47,651 nt of DNA from Thermodesulfobacteriota bacterium (lineage in GTDB: Bacteria; Desulfobacterota; WTBG01; CAIYCZ01; CAIRTM01), in assembly GCA_028282925.1 (NCBI GenBank), contig JANQGV010000269.1:1-47651 (forward strand), in the 5' to 3' direction. Of this stretch, positions 19,326 through 35,330 are shown piece after piece (within the stretch, counting starts at the first letter, position 1; each line of letters starts with the position of its first letter). The notes under the pieces are model-generated. The model was given only the letters and a program-made list of their open reading frames with translations. It made no database searches and was not told where the DNA came from. A program made the position numbers and the translations under genes.

Positions 19326-22300
19326 CTACTTCATCGGCTCATGGATGCGGCGTCCGAGCACTTTGCAAAATTCAAACAGCATATCCGGGCACTTCAGTGC
19401 AAAGCTCCTGAACCGGTCTTTGGTAAGGGCGAACAGCACGCAGTCTGTTTCGGCAATGGCGCTGAAAGCGCTCGGCATCATATCAAACAGGGCCTGTTCG
19501 GCAAAATAGTTTCCCTCGCTGAGCGTATGCTCTTTCCCCGCAGCCGGCTCCTGAACGGCGATGCGGCCCTTGTATATCAGGTACAGTTCATTGCCGCATT
19601 CTCCTTCGGCGATAACTGTTTCGCCCTTGAAATATTCGTTTTTGATGAGCACCTTGTCAAGTGCCAGCAATTCATCAAAGGCAAGGTGTTTAAAAAAATC
19701 GGTGTTTTTTAAGAAAAGAAGGCGGTTCATGAAAAATTCCTCCGGACTGCTTTTATTGTTTTTCCGGCCGTCGATATATTCGGCACAGCTGCGCACCAGG
19801 GGATCGGCGTCTTGCAGCATCTCGGACGGCAGTTGCCCGGGCCGGCCTGCCAGGCACATCAGGGCCCCTACCCTGATCCAGCGGTCGGGTGCGTGTATGG
19901 TTTCACAGAACAGCAGCGGCTCTGAGATGTCTCCGTCAACACGGTATGCATCCTCTTCGTACGGCAGAACGATCTGCTGAAAAAGCGGAATAAGCGGCTG
20001 CGTAAACCGACGGTGTCGCAGCGAGTCCAGGGCCTCCACGGCCGCGGACTTCAGACGCACATCAGAGGCCGAAAGAGCGATGCGCACGGCCTGCACCGCT
20101 TTTTCATACCCGAACACGTGAAATATGTGCAGAGTACGATTGATTATCCTGATGGTAAAATCTTCAATAGCAATACGCAGTGGGCGCATATGATCTGCAC
20201 AATGAGCAAGAGCGGCTGTCCAGCGCCGGCAATTTTCAGCCAGATAGTAATACTTCGTCATAAAATCATAGATGATTTTTTCACTGTCGGAGTATCCCGA
20301 GCGGGCAATGGCATGGATTGCAGCATCGGCAACATCATCGGACGCCGTTTCCATGATGCCGGATGTCAGGCATACTGCGCCGGGGCCGTATGAGGCGAGG
20401 GCCTCGGCTGCGTTGTTACGCACCGCCAGGGCCTGGTCGTAGAGCGCCGTAGCGATACGGGACATGGAGCCCTGCGACCCGACTTGCCCCAGCAGTTTCA
20501 CCGCTTCGGCCCGCACCCTGGACGAATCACTTTCCAGTCCGGCCGATGCGATCCGGGCGGCAAAATCATCACCGGCTTCAACATGCCTCCCGATCATTTT
20601 CAGTCCCTCAACCGTTACCTCGGGCGGTGCATTTTCAATTGCCTTGCCGATCAGGGGAACCAGCAGCATATCGTCAAGGTTTTTGGTAGCCTGAATCATT
20701 TCCATTTTAATGACCGGATCGGTGTCCGGCTTCGGCAGGTCGTTCAAAAGCAGCATAATTTCGCTGTCGAACAGCCCGGCCTGGTACGCATACACTGCGG
20801 CAAGGGCTCGAATGGAAGGGTCCTCTTCATTGAGCAGCGGTCCGATATGCTCTTCACCCGGGTGTTCGCCCAGTTTGATCAGGGCCTCCAGGGCGGTCTT
20901 TCTCAGTCCCGGGCCGGTTTCCGTAAGGCAGCGGTAGCAGGCTTCCACAAGGCTTTCGGTATGAAATCGCTGTATATGCTCCACCAGGGTGCTGCGCACC
21001 TGGGGGGACTCGGACACAAGCAGCTTTTCCACATGGTCGGCATATATGCGCGGGTTCTCGATCCGGGTTGCCAGCAGGACTCCTATCATCTGGGACTCGG
21101 GCAGGGGGTCCGACAGCAATGCCGGAATTTCTCCGCTGTAGCGCGTGCTGGCCTGAACCATATCTTCACTCAGCTCGTCGAAATCCACAAACCCCGAGCG
21201 CAGCATCGAGGTAAGGGACGACAGGTAACTCCTCCCGAGAAAGTAGCGCAGCACGATATATGCTGCGCTCACACCGATACAGCACAGGGCGATCTGCTGA
21301 TGGGTTAAAAACTGTTTCGCGGTCAGCAAAACCGCACCCGCAAGGGCAACTCCCAGAAAATAGAACATCCCGTCCGCCAGAACCCGTGCGCGTCCGATAA
21401 ACCGATGCGGCAGGGCATTGTAATTCAAGTTGAACACAGGCTTGTCCAGGCTCTGGTACAGCGAATCGTAATTGATATTTGCCGCAACAGCGGCAACGGG
21501 CCTGAAATAAAAATAGAGGCCGATAAACGAAATCAGGGTCGTGCAGGGATGAATCATGTTCATTTTTATGATCCCGAGCCGTTTGATAAGCGGCCCGGTG
21601 AGAAAATAGATAATCAAAAACTGCAGAACGCTCTGGACTGCCATAACAATACCCATGAAGCCTGCCAGGGCCTCGGCAGTTGGATACGCACGGGAATAAA
21701 TGGTAAACACCTGAAATTCGGCCAGGCAGTTCAGCAGCACAAACATACAACTGCTGAAAGCGAGAAAGAGCATCAGCGGATAGCGGCGCGCTATGGAGGG
21801 AAAGCTTTTCAAGGCCTGAACCGTACTTTCCTGCTCTTCAAATGAGGTTTCCTCCAGGGGCTTGATGCGGGACCCGAGGAAAACAAGCTGCCCGATTGCA
21901 ACGGCGCACAGAACAATGGTGATCAGCAGCAGGCTCCGTCCGGTAAAAACGGCCGCTGCCCCCATTGCCAGCGTACCGCCGGCAATGCCGCCCACGGCGA
22001 CACAGGCCGCCAGCAACGGATAAGCCTGCTTCAGTTCAGTGGGTGTGAAATAATCGGCGGCAATACTTGGAAACAGGATGTCCGTCAACAGGACCCACAG
22101 TATATAAAAAAACATGTACATGAGATAGTAGAGCGGCAGCACCGGCTGCCGGGCAAAAAACCACAGCACGGCAATGGCCGCCGATGCCGTCACCAGCAGT
22201 ATGATGCACAGGTGGCGGCGCGGAAAACGGTCGATAAGCTGGGAAACCCCGGCATACATCGGCAGGGAGATAATGCCCATGATAATGTACACCATGGGAA

Positions 22301-22469
22301 TGCGGTCGGCCCCGGCCCCGGCAAGAAACAGGGCGCTGGCGGCCGTGTATCCGAACACGCTGATTGCCATAAAGGAAGCGGCCAGAAAGAAAAAATGACT
22401 GAGACGGGTGAGCTGGGCCCGGGTGAGATCAAACCTGTTTTCTATAAATGTGCTGATTTTCAAAATCAT
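19326..22469 (-). CDS. Npt1/ADP-ATP-translocase-like membrane protein fused to HEAT repeats and a cNMP-binding-like domain
   Basis: Large inner-membrane protein of 1047 aa in three parts. Residues about 20-415 form a 12-segment transporter resembling bacterial nucleotide transporters of the Npt1 (TLC ATP/ADP) type. Residues about 440-880 are HEAT-type alpha-helical repeats (for example VRAEAVKLLGQVGS, VRNNAAEALASYG, LKSAAVEALDSL). Residues about 925-1045 match a cyclic-nucleotide-binding fold. In that last domain the phosphate-binding cassette reads FAEQAL followed by PSAFS instead of the usual FGE...PRAA(T/S). The phosphate-contacting Arg is therefore missing and cNMP binding is doubtful. 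Transporter-HEAT-cNMP fusions are known in several environmental phyla, but their function is unclear. No ribosome site is evident. It is transcribed alone, divergent from the peptidase fusion gene. Confidence 0.88.
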   Translation of the reverse strand: MILKISTFIENRFDLTRAQLTRLSHFFFLAASFMAISVFGYTAASALFLAGAGADRIPMVYIIMGIISLPMYAGVSQLIDRFPRRHLCIILLVTASAAIAVLWFFARQPVLPLYYLMYMFFYILWVLLTDILFPSIAADYFTPTELKQAYPLLAACVAVGGIAGGTLAMGAAAVFTGRSLLLITIVLCAVAIGQLVFLGSRIKPLEETSFEEQESTVQALKSFPSIARRYPLMLFLAFSSCMFVLLNCLAEFQVFTIYSRAYPTAEALAGFMGIVMAVQSVLQFLIIYFLTGPLIKRLGIIKMNMIHPCTTLISFIGLYFYFRPVAAVAANINYDSLYQSLDKPVFNLNYNALPHRFIGRARVLADGMFYFLGVALAGAVLLTAKQFLTHQQIALCCIGVSAAYIVLRYFLGRSYLSSLTSMLRSGFVDFDELSEDMVQASTRYSGEIPALLSDPLPESQMIGVLLATRIENPRIYADHVEKLLVSESPQVRSTLVEHIQRFHTESLVEACYRCLTETGPGLRKTALEALIKLGEHPGEEHIGPLLNEEDPSIRALAAVYAYQAGLFDSEIMLLLNDLPKPDTDPVIKMEMIQATKNLDDMLLVPLIGKAIENAPPEVTVEGLKMIGRHVEAGDDFAARIASAGLESDSSRVRAEAVKLLGQVGSQGSMSRIATALYDQALAVRNNAAEALASYGPGAVCLTSGIMETASDDVADAAIHAIARSGYSDSEKIIYDFMTKYYYLAENCRRWTAALAHCADHMRPLRIAIEDFTIRIINRTLHIFHVFGYEKAVQAVRIALSASDVRLKSAAVEALDSLRHRRFTQPLIPLFQQIVLPYEEDAYRVDGDISEPLLFCETIHAPDRWIRVGALMCLAGRPGQLPSEMLQDADPLVRSCAEYIDGRKNNKSSPEEFFMNRLLFLKNTDFFKHLAFDELLALDKVLIKNEYFKGETVIAEGECGNELYLIYKGRIAVQEPAAGKEHTLSEGNYFAEQALFDMMPSAFSAIAETDCVLFALTKDRFRSFALKCPDMLFEFCKVLGRRIHEPMK

Positions 22470-22648: not shown

Positions 22649-24817
22649 ATGTCCGGCATGGTTACTCATGTACAAAAAGCCTGGAACACCTGTTGTACAT
22701 CTCTTAGCAAAACCGGCGCCCGGACAGGACACCGGAAACGTCTTGTTCGCTTCAGCAGTGTTATCTTGGTTCTTGTGTGCTGCTTTCTCCTGAACAGTTG
22801 CGACGGCATCGGGCCCCTGAAAATCGGGGTACTGCTGCCAATCACCGGGCCCTACGAGCTCGGCTATGTAAAACCGCTGGAATGGGCCAAAGACAACGTT
22901 AATGCCGCCGGCGGTATTAACGGCCGCATGATACAGCTTGTGTATGAAGACCTGGGGGTCAAGGACTACCAGAAGGCGGCCAAAACACTTCTGGCAGATG
23001 ATTCGGTGGTGGCCGTTATCGGCACTGACGGCTCCGAGAGCACGTTCCGGCTGTGCCCCCAGTTCATCCGGCAAAAAAAAGTGCTTGTCAGCCCGGTGGC
23101 AACCTCGGCCGACATATTCCGGGCCTTCGGGGGCGAAAAGTATATCTGGCGCACCGTAGAGTCGGACATTGCCCAGGTACGCACCATGTTTCTTGTGGCG
23201 GCGCGCGACATGCATGAATCGGTTTCCCTGGTTACCTCCACCGACACCTATGGGGCCACCTTCTTCGACTGGTTCGGCTTTTTTGCCACCGAACTCGGCA
23301 TCGATGCCAAAGCAATCGTGCAGTACGACCAGAGCATTGAGACCTGTGAAAGCTATATGGACAAAGCCCTGGCAGGTAATCCCGACATTCTGTTCGCCTC
23401 TCCTTCCGACCCGGAAACGGCAATCTGCATGGCAAAGCAAATGCAAAAATCGGGCGGCGACACCAAACTCCTTTTCACCGACGGCGGCACCTACACTTCC
23501 ATTGTGGACACCCTGGGCGACGATGCCGAAGGGCTGCGGGGGATCGGTATGTCGTTTGACCCATTGAGCGGTTTCAACTACGCCTACTATAAAAAGTTTG
23601 ACGAGGCACCGTCTGCCTATGCGGCAAACTGTTACGACGCCCTCACCCTGATTGCCTACGGTTTGCAGCGCTCGGGCGGAAAGGGCGGCCAGGCCCTGGC
23701 CGATGCCATGGCCGAAGTGGTTGATGCCCGGGGAATCGAAACCATCTGGGACGGCGACGGCATCCGCCAGGCCCTGCAGATGATAAAGAAGGGCGAGCTC
23801 CCCGACATTACCGGCGCCACCGGCCCCCTTACCTATGACGCACAGAAACATACCGACGTGACCGGCTCGACCTACTGTTTGTGGCAGGTCATCGACGGTG
23901 ATTATGTCTGCCAGGAATATGTCTATTCCGGCAGTGACTCCGACGGCACAACATCCTCGGCCCTGTCCATCTTCCAGACCCTGGCCTCGGAAGAGCACAA
24001 GCTGGACCTTTCGGGCGGACAGAACGATTATGACCCTCCAGACGTTACCGGGTTGTGGGCCTTGATCATCTCCCCCTCAACCGGCTGGAGCAACTATCGG
24101 CACCAGTCCGACGCCCTGGCAGTCTACAGCCTGCTGAAACAAAACGGTCTCACGGACGACCGCATCATACTCATCCTCGCCGACGATATTGCCCACGATT
24201 CCGACAATCCCAAACCGGGAGAAATTTACAACTATTCCGGCGGCCCCAATGTATACGCCGGTGCGGAAATCGACTATGACCCCACGACCCTGGAACCCCA
24301 GGACATTTTTGACATCCTTTCCGGCAATGCCGGGCCCGGGCTTGACGATGTAATAAACGCGTCGGACTCCGAAAACATCTTTTTCTATATCGTCGGCCAC
24401 GGCGATGCCTCCGGTTCTGTGTTTAACGACACCCGCCTCACTCCGGCAGACCTGGCCGAAACCCTCGATACCATGTACGACAGCAGCAGCTACCGCAGGA
24501 TGTTTATCGAAGTTGAGACCTGTCACGGCGGGCTCATGGGCACCCAGATCGATGTTCCGGGCGTAATTCTTTTTTCCGGGGCCAACCCCTGGGAAAACTC
24601 CTTTGCCGCCAACTACGACCGCGACCTGAACGTGTGGTTGTCGGACCAGTTCTCCTACGCCATGTATGAAACCATGGCCGATACGCCCGATATATCACTC
24701 TTCGACCTGTATGAGTCGCTGTACCTGCAGGTAAACGGCTCCCATGTGAGCGTTTACAATTACGAGCAGTTCGGTAATCTGGAGGAGATTGCTCTGGAAG
24801 AATTTATCAGCCCCTAA
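22649..24817 (+). CDS. lipoprotein fusing a Leu/Ile/Val-type substrate-binding domain to a legumain-like C13 peptidase
   Basis: Predicted outer-surface or periplasmic lipoprotein of 722 aa. Basic N-terminus and hydrophobic segment end in the lipobox LNSC (Cys51). Residues about 57-430 are a type I periplasmic binding domain of the LivJ class (KIGVLLPITGPYELGY, VSPVATSADIF, GATGPLTYD). Residues about 470-700 closely follow eukaryotic legumain, peptidase family C13: GWSNYRHQSDA, DDIAHDSDNPKPGEIYN, the His loop GHGDASG (His584) and the Cys motif ETCHGGLM (Cys625). The His-to-Cys spacing is 41 residues, the same as human legumain His148-Cys189. Asn482, Arg484, Glu623 and Asp666 match the legumain catalytic Asn42 and S1-pocket residues, so cleavage after Asn or Asp is predicted. 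AAGGA precedes the start. No ABC transporter permease lies beside it. A family-B repeat starts right after the TAA stop. Confidence 0.9.
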   Translation: MSGMVTHVQKAWNTCCTSLSKTGARTGHRKRLVRFSSVILVLVCCFLLNSCDGIGPLKIGVLLPITGPYELGYVKPLEWAKDNVNAAGGINGRMIQLVYEDLGVKDYQKAAKTLLADDSVVAVIGTDGSESTFRLCPQFIRQKKVLVSPVATSADIFRAFGGEKYIWRTVESDIAQVRTMFLVAARDMHESVSLVTSTDTYGATFFDWFGFFATELGIDAKAIVQYDQSIETCESYMDKALAGNPDILFASPSDPETAICMAKQMQKSGGDTKLLFTDGGTYTSIVDTLGDDAEGLRGIGMSFDPLSGFNYAYYKKFDEAPSAYAANCYDALTLIAYGLQRSGGKGGQALADAMAEVVDARGIETIWDGDGIRQALQMIKKGELPDITGATGPLTYDAQKHTDVTGSTYCLWQVIDGDYVCQEYVYSGSDSDGTTSSALSIFQTLASEEHKLDLSGGQNDYDPPDVTGLWALIISPSTGWSNYRHQSDALAVYSLLKQNGLTDDRIILILADDIAHDSDNPKPGEIYNYSGGPNVYAGAEIDYDPTTLEPQDIFDILSGNAGPGLDDVINASDSENIFFYIVGHGDASGSVFNDTRLTPADLAETLDTMYDSSSYRRMFIEVETCHGGLMGTQIDVPGVILFSGANPWENSFAANYDRDLNVWLSDQFSYAMYETMADTPDISLFDLYESLYLQVNGSHVSVYNYEQFGNLEEIALEEFISP

Positions 24818-25304: not shown

Positions 25305-26123
25305 TCACTGTTGCTCGTGGTTATGTTTAGATTCGGGATAAAAAAACCTTTTGAAATAATCAGATTCAAGGTATTTCTTGCCAAGTTCTGTTGCATGCAA
25401 TGCATACTCCAATGAACCCTTTTTTTTTGCTTTACCATATTCAAATTTAACGAGTCCGTTATCCTTAAGTTCTTTTGCTTTAATACAATCGGCAATATCC
25501 TTGAAAGACATGTGCCACATATTTTCTTCATTAGTTCCTCGCCTTTCATCATGATATTCTTTTAAATCATACAACAGCAGCATTGCAGCTGGATCTAATT
25601 TGTTATGTAGAGTAGAAAATGCCTTGTTAAGCTCTTGTTCAACCGGCCAAGAACGAGCATTAAAGTGCTCTAATAAGAGAGCTTTTAAATCATGAAAACA
25701 GTCATAGGTCAATATCTGAAGCTGTTCTATTTCAGTACTTTCAAACTCACTTGCTTTATGTTTCGTTATAATAACTGAATCACTTGGGCGAAGAGAACAA
25801 GCAACCCCCAGTTCATACAAAACGTTTGGGCGAGGATCGGACACATCGACAATAATAAGGTGACTTCCAAGCACGACCTTATAAACCTCGTCCATCCAAT
25901 CTAGCGAGTCCTGATTGGCTCCGACTAGGTTAAAATCCACATTAAGTTCTGTGCAGATCTCCTCGACTGTTTTTTTTAAATTCTCAAAAACATAATTTAT
26001 TTTTGAACTGCCCAGCGGTGCATTTTGAAATGAGCATAGAAGACCAAGGGTTTTACGTTTTGCCTCTATTAGCGTATTCAGGTAATTAAGTCCGTATAAA
26101 TCGTTGAATTCAAAAGCTCTCAT
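25305..26123 (-). CDS. TIR/nucleoside-deoxyribosyltransferase-like protein, possible defence effector
   Basis: Protein of 272 aa in an AT-rich island. The N-terminal half has the Rossmann-like pattern of TIR-like and nucleoside 2-deoxyribosyltransferase-like domains: a first strand LGLLCSFQNAP (about residues 27-37), a helix with charged residues, then SHLIIVDVSDPRPNVLYELG (about 87-106) with the Glu of YELG in the usual catalytic position. The last 80 residues look like a winged-helix segment (FKDIADCIKAKELKDNGLVKFEY). Proteins with this DxSxxxPNVxYELG motif are often nucleotide-binding or NAD-degrading effectors in bacterial immunity; whether this one is enzymatic is unknown. AAGGA seven bases before the ATG supports the start. 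No cyclase or sensor partner is obvious next to it. Confidence 0.75.
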   Translation of the reverse strand: MRAFEFNDLYGLNYLNTLIEAKRKTLGLLCSFQNAPLGSSKINYVFENLKKTVEEICTELNVDFNLVGANQDSLDWMDEVYKVVLGSHLIIVDVSDPRPNVLYELGVACSLRPSDSVIITKHKASEFESTEIEQLQILTYDCFHDLKALLLEHFNARSWPVEQELNKAFSTLHNKLDPAAMLLLYDLKEYHDERRGTNEENMWHMSFKDIADCIKAKELKDNGLVKFEYGKAKKKGSLEYALHATELGKKYLESDYFKRFFYPESKHNHEQQ

Positions 26124-27896: not shown

Positions 27897-28634
27897 TTAA
27901 TCGCACGCATTCATCGCTGCGCCCACACAGCTCCTGCCGGCCGGATTCCAGACCTGGCAGTTGTACGGGCACTCCTGCGGCGGCACAAAATCGGGGCAAT
28001 CGAACTCTTTCTGCTCGTCATAGAAGCAATTATTACGACAAGCAGTATACGCCGCATCACAGTCGTTCATACATTTCTCATGTTTATCAGGGTTGGTTTC
28101 GTTGCGGCATCCTTCATGACAATCGGTATATGAATCGTAACAAGTATCGAAACACGGATCAAAGGTGTTGTCACAGCAGGTATTACACGAATTATTTCCC
28201 GGAAGGCAGCCGTTCGTGCAGTCGTTATACGACCCGGTATAGGGGCCGTCTGTGGGCACCGAAAAATCATCTTCATAGGCGGTGAAGTTGATATCGGCTG
28301 TGTTGCCCGTCACCTCTACCTTTTGGGTAACGGGATCAAACAGATACCCTTCCAGCGCGGCATACACAATGTAGCTGCCTGCGGCAAGGCCCGTAAAGGT
28401 GTATGTGCCGCTTGCATCGGTGGTGACTATGGTGTAGTCGTCTTCGGTTGTCTCGTTGCCCATGGTGGCATTGTCCGCAGCATTAAACAAAAGAATGCTC
28501 ACCCCTTCGGCCCCGCCGCCGGTGTCGTGCCAGCTAACCGTTCCGCTCAGTGTGAACTGGTCGGTACATGCGGCCGTAAAAAAGGCGATTATGGCGATAG
28601 TCATCAGTGCTGCAAGCATCTTTGTTTGTTTCAT
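27897..28634 (-). CDS. Cys-rich lipoprotein with carboxypeptidase-regulatory-like domain, paralogue 1
   Basis: Lipoprotein of 245 aa: signal peptide ending TAAC (lipobox, Cys23). One beta-sandwich domain of the carboxypeptidase-regulatory/Cna-B type follows (about residues 29-115: LSGTVSWHDTGGGAEGVSI, TTDASGTYTFTGLAAGSYIV). Then comes a tail of about 120 residues with 18 Cys. Many of these are in CX3C pairs, with CX3C-X6-CX3C units (CFDTCYDSYTDCHEGC and CMNDCDAAYTACRNNC) typical of disulfide-linked helical hairpins, and the tail ends FDCPDF...CPYNC...WNPAGRSC. Function unknown. It is the most downstream of three paralogues (27.9-30.6 kb) with near-identical N-termini. A clear AAAGGAGAG site precedes the ATG. 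Confidence 0.85.
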   Translation of the reverse strand: MKQTKMLAALMTIAIIAFFTAACTDQFTLSGTVSWHDTGGGAEGVSILLFNAADNATMGNETTEDDYTIVTTDASGTYTFTGLAAGSYIVYAALEGYLFDPVTQKVEVTGNTADINFTAYEDDFSVPTDGPYTGSYNDCTNGCLPGNNSCNTCCDNTFDPCFDTCYDSYTDCHEGCRNETNPDKHEKCMNDCDAAYTACRNNCFYDEQKEFDCPDFVPPQECPYNCQVWNPAGRSCVGAAMNACD

Positions 28635-28870
28635 GGCATCTCTCCTTTAGATTTTTTAAAAGCACACCAAGTTTACCGTATTATTACTATTGTTTCGGTT
28701 GTAGGCCGTAAACTATTAGGATAATCTTGCCCTTTAAAAGTGGCGCATCGCTTATAGATAACACATGTTTTTTTATATTTCATGCCGACACAACATGCCT
28801 TAAAAGTCATGCATTATCCAACAGATAATAAAACTGCCCGCCTGCGGGGAAGAAAGCAGAGCACATACAA

Positions 28871-28908
28871 ACAAAAAAGGCCCGGGATGCTGCAAAAGGC
28901 ATCCCGGG
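28871..28908 (-). terminator. intrinsic terminator after lipoprotein gene 2
   Basis: On the minus strand, CCCGGGATGC (28899-28908) pairs with GCATCCCGGG (28881-28890), followed by CCTTTTTTGTTTGT. It matches the terminator after paralogue 1 in layout and flanks, so the terminator was duplicated with the gene. Confidence 0.88.
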
Positions 28909-28953
28909 TCCAGGGTTACTGTACCAAAGGTCGGGCCGCTCCGGCCCAATCAA

Positions 28954-29688
28954 TTAAAAATTACACCCGTTCATCGGGGCGCCGGCACACGACCTGCTGG
29001 CCGGATTCCACATCTGGCAGTTGTACGGGCACGTCTGCGGCGGCATGAAATCGGGGCAGTCAAATTCTTGCTCCACTACATAGTTGCAATTATTATAACA
29101 ACCATCGCGTGCCAGACGACAAGCCTCTACGCAGTCCAGATAGTTATAATCATAGGGGTCGCAATTGTCGGAACACGTGGTATACCCATTAAAGCAGCCA
29201 GTAAAACACGGGTCAAAGTTCGAATCGCAGCAATTACTGCACTCATTAACCCCCGGCCGGCACCCGTTAATACAGTCCATATACGCTCCGGTATAGGGCC
29301 CGTTAGAAGGCGCCTCGAAGGTATTTTCATAGGCGGTAAAGTCAATATCGGCTGTTTTGCCCGTTATCTCAACCTCCAGGTTGGCCGGATCGAAGGTATA
29401 CCCTTCCAGCGCTGCATACACAATGTAGCTGCCGGCACTCAGGCCCGTAAAGCTGTACTTACCGTCTTTACCGGTGGTGACTATGGTGTAGTCGTCTTCG
29501 GTTGTCGTGTTGTCCATGGTGGCATTGTCTGCGGCATTAAACAGGATCACGCTCACCCCTTCGGCCCCGCCGCCGGTATCATGCCAGGTAACCGTTCCGC
29601 TCAAGATGAGCTGATCCGTGCATGAGACCGTAAAAAAGGCCAGCAAGGCGGTAATTATCAGTGCTGCCAACATCTTTGTTTGTTTCAT
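28954..29688 (-). CDS. Cys-rich lipoprotein with carboxypeptidase-regulatory-like domain, paralogue 2
   Basis: Lipoprotein of 244 aa; the ATG at 29688 has the same AAGGAGAGATGCA site as paralogue 1 and gives the same N-terminus (MKQTKMLAAL). Lipobox VSC, then the beta-sandwich domain (LSGTVTWHDTGGGAEGVSV) and a tail with 18 Cys. The Cys positions are kept but the loops differ widely from paralogue 1 (CFTGCFNGYTTCSDNC, CVEACRLARDGCYNNC). The ending FDCPDFMPPQTCPYNC is shared. The conserved front and diverged Cys-rich tail suggest duplication followed by tail diversification. Its own terminator follows, so it is not in an operon with paralogue 1. Confidence 0.85.
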   Translation of the reverse strand: MKQTKMLAALIITALLAFFTVSCTDQLILSGTVTWHDTGGGAEGVSVILFNAADNATMDNTTTEDDYTIVTTGKDGKYSFTGLSAGSYIVYAALEGYTFDPANLEVEITGKTADIDFTAYENTFEAPSNGPYTGAYMDCINGCRPGVNECSNCCDSNFDPCFTGCFNGYTTCSDNCDPYDYNYLDCVEACRLARDGCYNNCNYVVEQEFDCPDFMPPQTCPYNCQMWNPASRSCAGAPMNGCNF

Positions 29689-29846
29689 TGCATCTCTCCT
29701 TTTGATTGTCAAAAACGTACTGTATTCACCTCAGCATAAATCTACTTGTTTCGGCTGCAAGCCGCAAACTATGCGCCTGTATCCGTTTCTTCACAAAAGC
29801 ATCGCTCTCTATGTCAAAAGTCAAATCGCCGAGTCCTGAGAGCTGT

Positions 29847-30629
29847 TTATCCGCATTCGTCATTCGCCGGGCCTTCACACGACCGCTTGGCCGGATTCCA
29901 GGTCTGGCAGTTGTACGGGCACTCCTGCGGCGGCATAAAATCGGGGCAGTCGAACTCCATATGTATATCATAGGTACACATCATAATACATGTACCACAT
30001 TCCTCCTCACAACCGGCCGTACAATCGTCCCAGCACTCCCTCTGCTCTAAGGAGGGGGGATAACACTTGTCATCACACTCGTCATCACAGACATCATGCT
30101 CATCCCCGCAATTATCAGTACAAAGTTTAACTTCCGGACCAAAAGTATCGTGACAGCAGGTTTTACACGGATTATCTCCCGGGAGGCAGCCATTCGAACA
30201 GTCGGTATACGACCCGGTGTAGACGGTGCCATTGTCCGGGTCGTTTGAAGGCACCTCAAAGTCATCTTCATGGGCGGTAAAGTCAATATCGGCTGTTTTG
30301 CCCGTTACCTCAACCTCACGGTTGGCCGGATCGAAGGTATACCCTTCCAGCGCGGCATACACAATGTAGCTGCCCGCACTCAGGCCCGTAAAGGTGTACT
30401 TACCGTCTTTATCGGTGGTGACTATGGTGTAGTCGTCTTCGGTTGTCGTGTTGTCCATGGTGGCATTGTCCGCGGCATTAAACAGGATCACGCTCACCCC
30501 TTCGGCCCCGCCGCCGGTGTCATGCCAGGTAACCGTTCCGCTCAAAATGAACTGGTCGGTGCATGCGGCCGTGAAAAAGGCCAGTAAGGCGGTAATTATC
30601 AGTGCCGCAAGCATCTTTCTGTGTTTCAT
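29847..30629 (-). CDS. Cys-rich lipoprotein with carboxypeptidase-regulatory-like domain, paralogue 3
   Basis: Lipoprotein of 260 aa with lipobox TAAC. The beta-sandwich domain is nearly identical to paralogue 2. The tail is the longest of the three and has 21 Cys, with an insert of extra pairs (CDDECDDKC, CWDDCTAGCEEECGTC), many flanked by Asp and Glu. The shared ending FDCPDFMPPQECPYNC...NPAKRSC is present. The ATG has a weaker AAAGAGG site. An odd Cys count allows one free thiol or an intermolecular bond. Metal binding is possible because of the acidic Cys clusters, but this is inference. The intergenic stretch 30630-31027 shows no gene. Confidence 0.85.
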   Translation of the reverse strand: MKHRKMLAALIITALLAFFTAACTDQFILSGTVTWHDTGGGAEGVSVILFNAADNATMDNTTTEDDYTIVTTDKDGKYTFTGLSAGSYIVYAALEGYTFDPANREVEVTGKTADIDFTAHEDDFEVPSNDPDNGTVYTGSYTDCSNGCLPGDNPCKTCCHDTFGPEVKLCTDNCGDEHDVCDDECDDKCYPPSLEQRECWDDCTAGCEEECGTCIMMCTYDIHMEFDCPDFMPPQECPYNCQTWNPAKRSCEGPANDECG

Positions 30630-33895: not shown

Positions 33896-34129
33896 AGGCT
33901 TTTGGAAAATGGTCGGATACAAGGCGCGCGAAACGCTGAGGTGGCAACATACAGCCGCGTAGCGGGTGCCTTGTTTTGCCTTTTCAGGGAAAACAAGGAG
34001 CACGTATGTGCGTTGTTTCCTTCCACAGGAAAAAAATCTTTTTCCTGTGGATCATTTGGCGTACTTGTTTGTACGCCGCAGTGACGAAGGGTGAGTGCAA
34101 CGCCGTAGATGGGCGTTTTCCAGAAGCCT
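33896..34129. repeat. stop-codon-associated palindromic repeat, family B, copy 6
   Basis: About 234 bp. Outer arms AGGCTTTTGGAAAA (33896-33909) and TTTTCCAGAAGCCT (34116-34129) complement each other except for one base. Family blocks GATACAAGGCGCGCGAA and CGCAGTGACGAAGGGTGAG are present. The interior holds a perfect 13-bp hairpin (TCCACAGGAAAAA with TTTTTCCTGTGGA, 34022-34051) and GGCGTAC-TTGTTT-GTACGCC at the tip. The last arm overlaps the TAG stop of the top6A gene. Confidence 0.8.
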
Positions 34130-35330
34130 AGGGCAACATCTTGGCAGGGCTTTTAAGCTTCTCCGGCAAATAGGTCTCCATAACATAGTTAAGCCCCCGG
34201 GCGGCAAAGGCCTGCTGTTCAACACGCACACCCATTTTGATCATGTCGGTGAGCGCCTGGGCCCATTGCTTGTTGTTTTTAAAGAAGGGGTCGTTCTTCA
34301 GGGCGTCCTGGGCCCGTTTTTTGTCTTTGTCTTCCAGGGGGTGAGTCGGCAGATTATAGTCCTTGATGTCCCGGGGGGTCACGCCGATGAGCTTGGCATG
34401 GGGCACACAGAAAAACTCGTTGATATGGGCGGCATTGCCGGAACCCACTTTCATAGTGCGGTAAATATTACCGTAGCCGTAGGGATCACCATCGGTAAAA
34501 ACATACACCGGCAGGTTACAGGTGTCCGACAACATTCTCACAAACCTGCGGTTTGCCCGGGTGGGCACACCACCCATGGCAACGATAATACAGTTGCCGT
34601 CCTTCCAGTAGGCATGGCCGTTGAGGCGCTCGAACAGGGCTGCGGTTTCAACGGCCAGCACAAATGTGGCCTTGGTTTTAAACCCGATCCCCTCGACCCG
34701 CGAGGGTATGGAATAGCTTCCCCGTCCAAAGGCGGTACAATCGATTTCGATCCGGCGGCCGGTGGCCGGGTCCGTATCGATCACGATAAGCTCTCCGGCA
34801 ACCGAGCCGTTCTGCTCGGCCGGTATAAAACCCAATTGTTCACGGTTGACGCCGACCATGGCCTCCATATCGTCCATAATGGCATCGGATTCAGTCTGTT
34901 CCTTAAAAGCCGCCGGGCCCCAGCCGGCCTGCCCGGGCTCGCTGCCGCGCTTTGACGAACCTTTGGAAGTGTAGTAGACCTCACGTTTGGATGCAAAGTC
35001 GTCGGTTTCAATCAGGTGCTTTGAAAACGCCATCATCCGCACGGACTGGGCAAAGGGTTTGACGGTCTGGTACGAAAGGGTCCGCTTGCTGACTTTTTTG
35101 CCGATGGTAAAAAAGCCCTTGCGGGATGAAAACGTTACATTGCTCAGGCTGCGCACCGGAACCCGCAGGGACGGTCGCCGGCCCCCCTTAATCTCCTGAT
35201 GAATATCCTTGGCCTGGCTTAACAGGCTTTTCATGGCCGGGGAGCGGGAAAGATCGGGCCGGGCGGCTTTCCTCTTTGTTTTTGCGGTGCTGCTTTTCGT
35301 TACGGTTTTCTTTGTCGGCTTTTTTGCCAT
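34128..35330 (-). CDS. top6A: DNA topoisomerase VI subunit A
   Basis: Catalytic (DNA-cleaving) subunit of the type IIB topoisomerase, homologous to Spo11. The 5Y-CAP domain carries the active Tyr in KREVYY (Tyr119/120). The Toprim domain shows the metal ligands Glu228 (ETAALFERL) and Asp280/Asp282 (FTDGDPYGYGN). Length is 400 aa, a little longer than archaeal relatives because of a Lys/Ala/Thr-rich N-terminal tail (about residues 1-30). AAGGAG five bases before the ATG supports the start. It follows top6B after 54 bases on the same strand, the usual pairing. Topo VI is mainly archaeal and plant; bacterial copies are uncommon and scattered. A family-B repeat overlaps the stop. Confidence 0.95.
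   Translation of the reverse strand: MAKKPTKKTVTKSSTAKTKRKAARPDLSRSPAMKSLLSQAKDIHQEIKGGRRPSLRVPVRSLSNVTFSSRKGFFTIGKKVSKRTLSYQTVKPFAQSVRMMAFSKHLIETDDFASKREVYYTSKGSSKRGSEPGQAGWGPAAFKEQTESDAIMDDMEAMVGVNREQLGFIPAEQNGSVAGELIVIDTDPATGRRIEIDCTAFGRGSYSIPSRVEGIGFKTKATFVLAVETAALFERLNGHAYWKDGNCIIVAMGGVPTRANRRFVRMLSDTCNLPVYVFTDGDPYGYGNIYRTMKVGSGNAAHINEFFCVPHAKLIGVTPRDIKDYNLPTHPLEDKDKKRAQDALKNDPFFKNNKQWAQALTDMIKMGVRVEQQAFAARGLNYVMETYLPEKLKSPAKMLP

Follow-up and report, generated by a model that had tools for sequence, protein, structure and literature searches.

Why would a bacterium fuse a small-molecule-binding domain of the LivJ type to a legumain-like C13 peptidase, and could the first domain control the second? 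The question is raised by a single gene of a Thermodesulfobacteriota bacterium, which lies on contig JANQGV010000269.1 of assembly GCA_028282925.1. The 47,651 nt analysed from this contig are referred to below as the window. The fusion gene and the features of its product are as follows.

22649-24817, +: fusion gene, one 722-aa frame without internal stop
22649..22798, +: predicted lipoprotein signal peptide, residues 1-50, with lipobox L48-N49-S50 before Cys51 and Asp52 at +2
22799..22801, +: Cys51, the predicted site of lipid attachment (LLNS-Cys51, following a leader of basic and hydrophobic residues)
22814..23959, +: type I periplasmic-binding (LivJ/HAAT-type) domain, residues 56-437, extending beyond the Pfam match
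23033..23482, +: predicted alpha-amino-acid pocket Ser129, Thr152, Tyr201 and Asp278, from alignment to amino-acid-binding proteins in the PDB
23960..24046, +: variable linker, residues about 438-466, 20-50% identity, partly of low pLDDT
24047..24814, +: C13 (legumain-like) peptidase domain, residues 467-722 (PF01650; TM 0.86 to legumain)
24398..24400, +: predicted catalytic His584, after Gly583 (Asp147 in legumain); the GHG motif is invariant in the family
24521..24523, +: predicted catalytic Cys625 (V-E-T-C-H-G), with S1 residue Glu623 two positions before it, by alignment
24644..24646, +: predicted S1 residue Asp666 (Asp231 in legumain), Asn in relative L025

A lipoprotein with a binding domain and a C13 domain

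The ATG start of the fusion gene is preceded by AAGGAA, and scans for a promoter and a terminator gave results near chance. The first-pass annotation had proposed a surface lipoprotein. The lipoprotein part of this proposal agrees with the basic and hydrophobic leader that runs into the lipobox, and with equivalently placed lipoboxes in four relatives (LLFGC, LCLSC, LLLSC and LLGAC). The surface location is uncertain, because the residue after the lipid cysteine is Asp52, and Asp at +2 is a signal for inner-membrane retention of lipoproteins in enterobacteria. This position is Gln or Ser in the four relatives that cover the region.

The Pfam profile Peptidase_C13 (PF01650) matches residues 470-708 with an E-value of 2.7e-47 and 161.9 bits, against a cut-off of 22.8. 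When the PDB was searched with this part of the protein, legumain was the best match (E about 1e-42 (3e-42), or 3e-57 with the family profile), followed by GPI-anchor transamidase (E about 1e-29). The similarity to legumain is long and collinear. With legumain numbering anchored on its NYRHQ (Asn42), the fusion residues Asn482, Arg484, His584, Glu623, Cys625 and Asp666 align with legumain Asn42, Arg44, His148, Glu187, Cys189 and Asp231, so that all six catalytic and S1 residues first named from the sequence were correctly placed. The His-Cys spacing is 41 in both proteins, and fusion His485 and Ser651 align with legumain His45 and Ser216. His584 precedes Cys625, and both are invariant in the five aligned family members. 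An AlphaFold2 model built from six family members (pLDDT 77, pTM 0.70; it gives no inter-domain error) has the caspase-like fold of clan CD and overlays on the catalytic domain of human legumain with a TM of 0.86, normalised to legumain, at 32% identity. Judged by its sequence, the domain is legumain-grade, with a complete set of predicted catalytic and S1 residues, and it would be expected to cleave after Asn or Asp.

Only 14 aa follow the C13 match in the fusion protein, which has no counterpart of the C-terminal prodomain of legumain. The relatives, too, carry Gly before the catalytic His, and Asp147, which forms a succinimide in human legumain, is absent. Because both the prodomain and Asp147 are missing, latency, if there is any, would have to come from elsewhere, and the N-terminal domain is the obvious candidate.

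This N-terminal domain had been called LivJ-like, an assignment that holds. Peripla_BP_6 (PF13458) matches residues 56-357 (E 2.2e-34), a PDB search matched the N-terminal part of the fusion to Leu-type binding proteins, and the binding domain of the model reaches TM values of up to 0.80 with LivK/LivJ-type proteins. Ser129, Thr152, Tyr201 and Asp278 occupy the four positions that hold the alpha-carboxylate and alpha-amino groups of the ligand in the Leu/Ile/Val family (LivJ), and these columns are Ser, Thr or Ser, Tyr and Asp in the family members covering them. Because these pocket positions are conserved, the ligand is most likely an alpha-amino acid. Two PDB entries from Anabaena differ at the position of Asp278: wild-type 4obb, whose title names a 3-methyl-2-... 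ligand, has Asn there, and 4nv3, listed as an N280D mutant, has Asp. This difference is in keeping with an acidic residue that selects amino acids.

The region between the two domains is only 20-50% identical among the fusion relatives, versus 41-61% within the domains. Such variability is as compatible with a loose tether as with a joint that passes on a signal.

Relatives and gene neighbourhood

The fusion is found, collinear, in three other genomes (four in all), at 41-61% identity per domain. Relative L010, from 'Deltaproteobacteria bacterium RIFOXYA12_FULL_61_11', is 60% identical over 671 aa spanning both domains and has its own lipobox; its genome belongs to another, very small phylum (two genomes in the sample). 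Further fusion pieces lie on two contig ends of the L010 genome, one C-terminal (L026) and one N-terminal (L027), which points to at least one more copy there, possibly two. The complete fusions L024 and L025 come from other classes of the window's phylum and show 41-47% identity per domain. In both domains most of the divergence falls at third codon positions, and the two domains diverge in step. Legumain-grade C13 matches (>160 bits) occur in three of the 395 genomes of the window's phylum, the window's own included, and all three are fusions; the remaining three C13 matches in these genomes score 39-45 bits. The fusion is rare yet conserved in independent genomes, and its domain matches are far beyond chance.

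No relative of the C13 domain was found in plasmid and phage collections or in a pattern scan of IMG/VR, which leaves a mobile or viral origin without support. A defence-system search with the fusion protein gave no match.

The other C13 matches read in the same genome were rejected as relatives of the fusion. These matches, on contigs C261 and C80 (L002, L003, L004 and L005) and on C19 (L006), are NHL-repeat proteins with weak caspase-like domains, encoded by giant frames of 2400-2900 aa and, on C19, by a frame of 856 aa. Their C13-like domains carry DHG and DACxSG motifs in one copy and have lost the His or Cys in the next (for example VGQGG, YDADYSG), so that the caspase-like units seem to be active and dead in turn.

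In the window the fusion gene stands alone, with both flanking genes on the opposite strand.

19326-22469, -: gene before the fusion, 1047 aa, MFS-like transporter with HEAT repeats and a cyclic-nucleotide-binding domain
25305-26123, -: gene after the fusion, weakly TIR-like (Pfam 5e-4; PADLOC TIR effector 1e-3)

The product of the second gene weakly resembles the TIR domain of CAP12/Pycsar effectors and is perhaps a nucleotide-sensing or defence protein. Further along the window we observed three other features.

27897-30629, -: tandem array of three paralogous lipoproteins (245-260 aa) with a prealbumin-like domain; their Cys-rich C-terminal halves vary from copy to copy
34128-35330, -: DNA topoisomerase VI subunit A (Spo11-like), here in a bacterial genome
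35385-37211, -: 608-aa frame beside it on the same strand, which may be subunit B

The usual ABC transporter partner of a LivJ-type protein had been noted as missing, and the wider survey agrees. No Liv-type permease or ATPase gene lies beside the fusion in the window, none was recognised by eye among the neighbouring ORFs of the relatives, and another contig of the same genome (C65) carries a complete Liv operon that includes a LivJ of its own. Instead, lipoprotein genes recur. A gene for a Bmp/PnrA-type lipoprotein lies directly upstream in L025 and L027, two relatives from different phyla, and overlaps the fusion gene by ATGA. In L010 the next gene after the fusion encodes a lipoprotein with weak similarity to DUF6528, and L026 has a related one in this place. 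Two homologous large lipoproteins (830-970 aa) neighbour the fusion in L024 and L025, that is, in two classes.

L024 3456-8858 and L025 1843-7311: genes for the large lipoproteins; one product has a C-type lectin domain and weakly resembles a GON domain

Because Bmp-type, DUF6528-like and large lipoprotein genes adjoin the fusions, the fusions sit among genes for exported lipoproteins, including ligand-binding ones, and not in a transport context. The Bmp gene does not adjoin the fusion in the window. The only Bmp protein of that genome is encoded on another contig and is 23-26% identical to the Bmp partners of L025 and L027, which makes a partnership with it unlikely.

Possible roles of the binding domain

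Our tentative preference is for a membrane-anchored lipoprotein that acts as receptor and protease at once, its C13 domain cutting under the control or direction of the bound ligand. Upon taking up a small ligand, most likely an alpha-amino acid, the binding domain would close, and the motion, relayed by the short linker, would alter the activity of the C13 domain or its access to substrate. The targets of the C13 domain would be proteins of the periplasm or the surface, cut after Asn (and Asp). The binding domain would in this way stand in for the C-terminal prodomain by which eukaryotic legumains are controlled, and the Bmp/PnrA-type lipoprotein coupled in some relatives could be a second sensor or partner. 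We favour such a receptor-protease because of the domain matches, both folds of the model, the collinear relatives and the conserved pocket, and also because there is no prodomain, no adjoining Liv transporter and, in L025 and L027, a coupled Bmp lipoprotein. It is weakened by the variable linker and by the absence of the Bmp partner beside the window gene. That a ligand gates the protease is plausible. A more far-reaching version would make these proteins an undescribed family of bacterial ligand-gated legumains, with an amino-acid-sensing domain as the prodomain-replacing switch of an anchored Asn-specific protease, a two-receptor module formed with the coupled Bmp/PnrA-type lipoprotein, and one-step sensing and cutting outside the cytoplasm; this we consider possible, if somewhat doubtful.

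Alternatively, the binding domain could be a structural or folding module that stabilises, shields or positions the C13 domain in the manner of a prodomain and senses no ligand. The fusion lacks the C-terminal domain that eukaryotic legumain requires for stability and latency (PMC4357240), and a binding domain is present wherever a legumain-grade C13 domain occurs in the window's phylum. Conservation of Ser129, Thr152, Tyr201 and Asp278 would, however, be unexpected in a mere scaffold, and we regard this explanation as unlikely.

A role in nutrient scavenging, with the C13 domain cutting at Asn/Asp and the binding domain capturing the released amino acids or peptides for a separate transporter, would suit the amino-acid type of the domain, and the Liv transporter of the genome could be shared. 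But that operon has its own LivJ, no Liv permease gene adjoins the fusion and an endopeptidase yields little in the way of free amino acids, which together make scavenging improbable.

The large lipoproteins that neighbour the fusion in two genomes could suggest a processing enzyme or transpeptidase, similar to GPI8 or to a peptide ligase, that matures or attaches such proteins and uses the binding domain as a recruiter. The C13 family includes transamidases and ligases, and the PDB matches include GPI-anchor transamidase and peptide asparaginyl ligases. However, the S1 residues match those of legumain, the legumain hit is much stronger than that to GPI8 (1e-42 vs 1e-29), no partner subunits were seen and the large lipoproteins are not beside the window gene, so we give this role little credence. 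Finally, although the fusion comes from a draft genome in 324 contigs (96.28% complete, 2.85% contamination), a catalytically dead relic is hardly credible when every catalytic residue is intact and none varies within the family, and an assembly chimera is ruled out by the occurrence of the fusion, with its third-position bias in both domains, in independent assemblies of two phyla.

Comparison with known systems

If the receptor-protease reading is true, the fusion would be a natural, possibly ligand-switched Asn-endopeptidase. It would offer a testable model of small-molecule control over a clan CD peptidase, a possible tool for protein engineering, and a signalling design that senses and cuts in one molecule outside the cytoplasm, without transporter or kinase.

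To our knowledge, legumains have been studied almost only in animals and plants, where pH and the loss of the prodomain switch their activity. The fusion shares with legumain (MEROPS C13) the equivalents of its catalytic His and Cys, Asn42 and S1 residues Arg44, Glu187 and Asp231, as well as the caspase-like fold. It differs in being bacterial, in having an N-terminal binding domain and a lipid anchor where legumain has a C-terminal prodomain, and in having Gly583 in place of the succinimide-forming Asp147. GPI8/PIG-K belongs to the same peptidase family and is likewise membrane-tethered, but its similarity is weaker, it has no binding domain, and no transamidase subunits were seen at the fusion. 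LivJ, LivK and other HAAT-type proteins (Peripla_BP_6) share the fold and the ligand-holding residues of the N-terminal domain, whereas the fusion is joined to a protease and has no adjoining cognate permease or ATPase.

C13 peptidases have been recorded in bacteria (Table 1 of PMC4357240), and legumain is mentioned in archaeal genomes (PMC6461988). A literature search, with most subscription journals outside its coverage, returned no report of a binding-domain/C13 fusion or of a 'bacterial legumain'. The nearest precedent is a cyanobacterial metacaspase with an ANF_receptor domain, reported once (PMC3501461). There, too, a type I ligand-binding domain is joined to a peptidase of clan CD, but it is a single sequence of the C14 type, not C13, and the passage that reports it does not describe a lipoprotein family. 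The principle of joining a receptor domain to a clan CD peptidase is thus already on record with the metacaspase, and the C13 version is what is new here.
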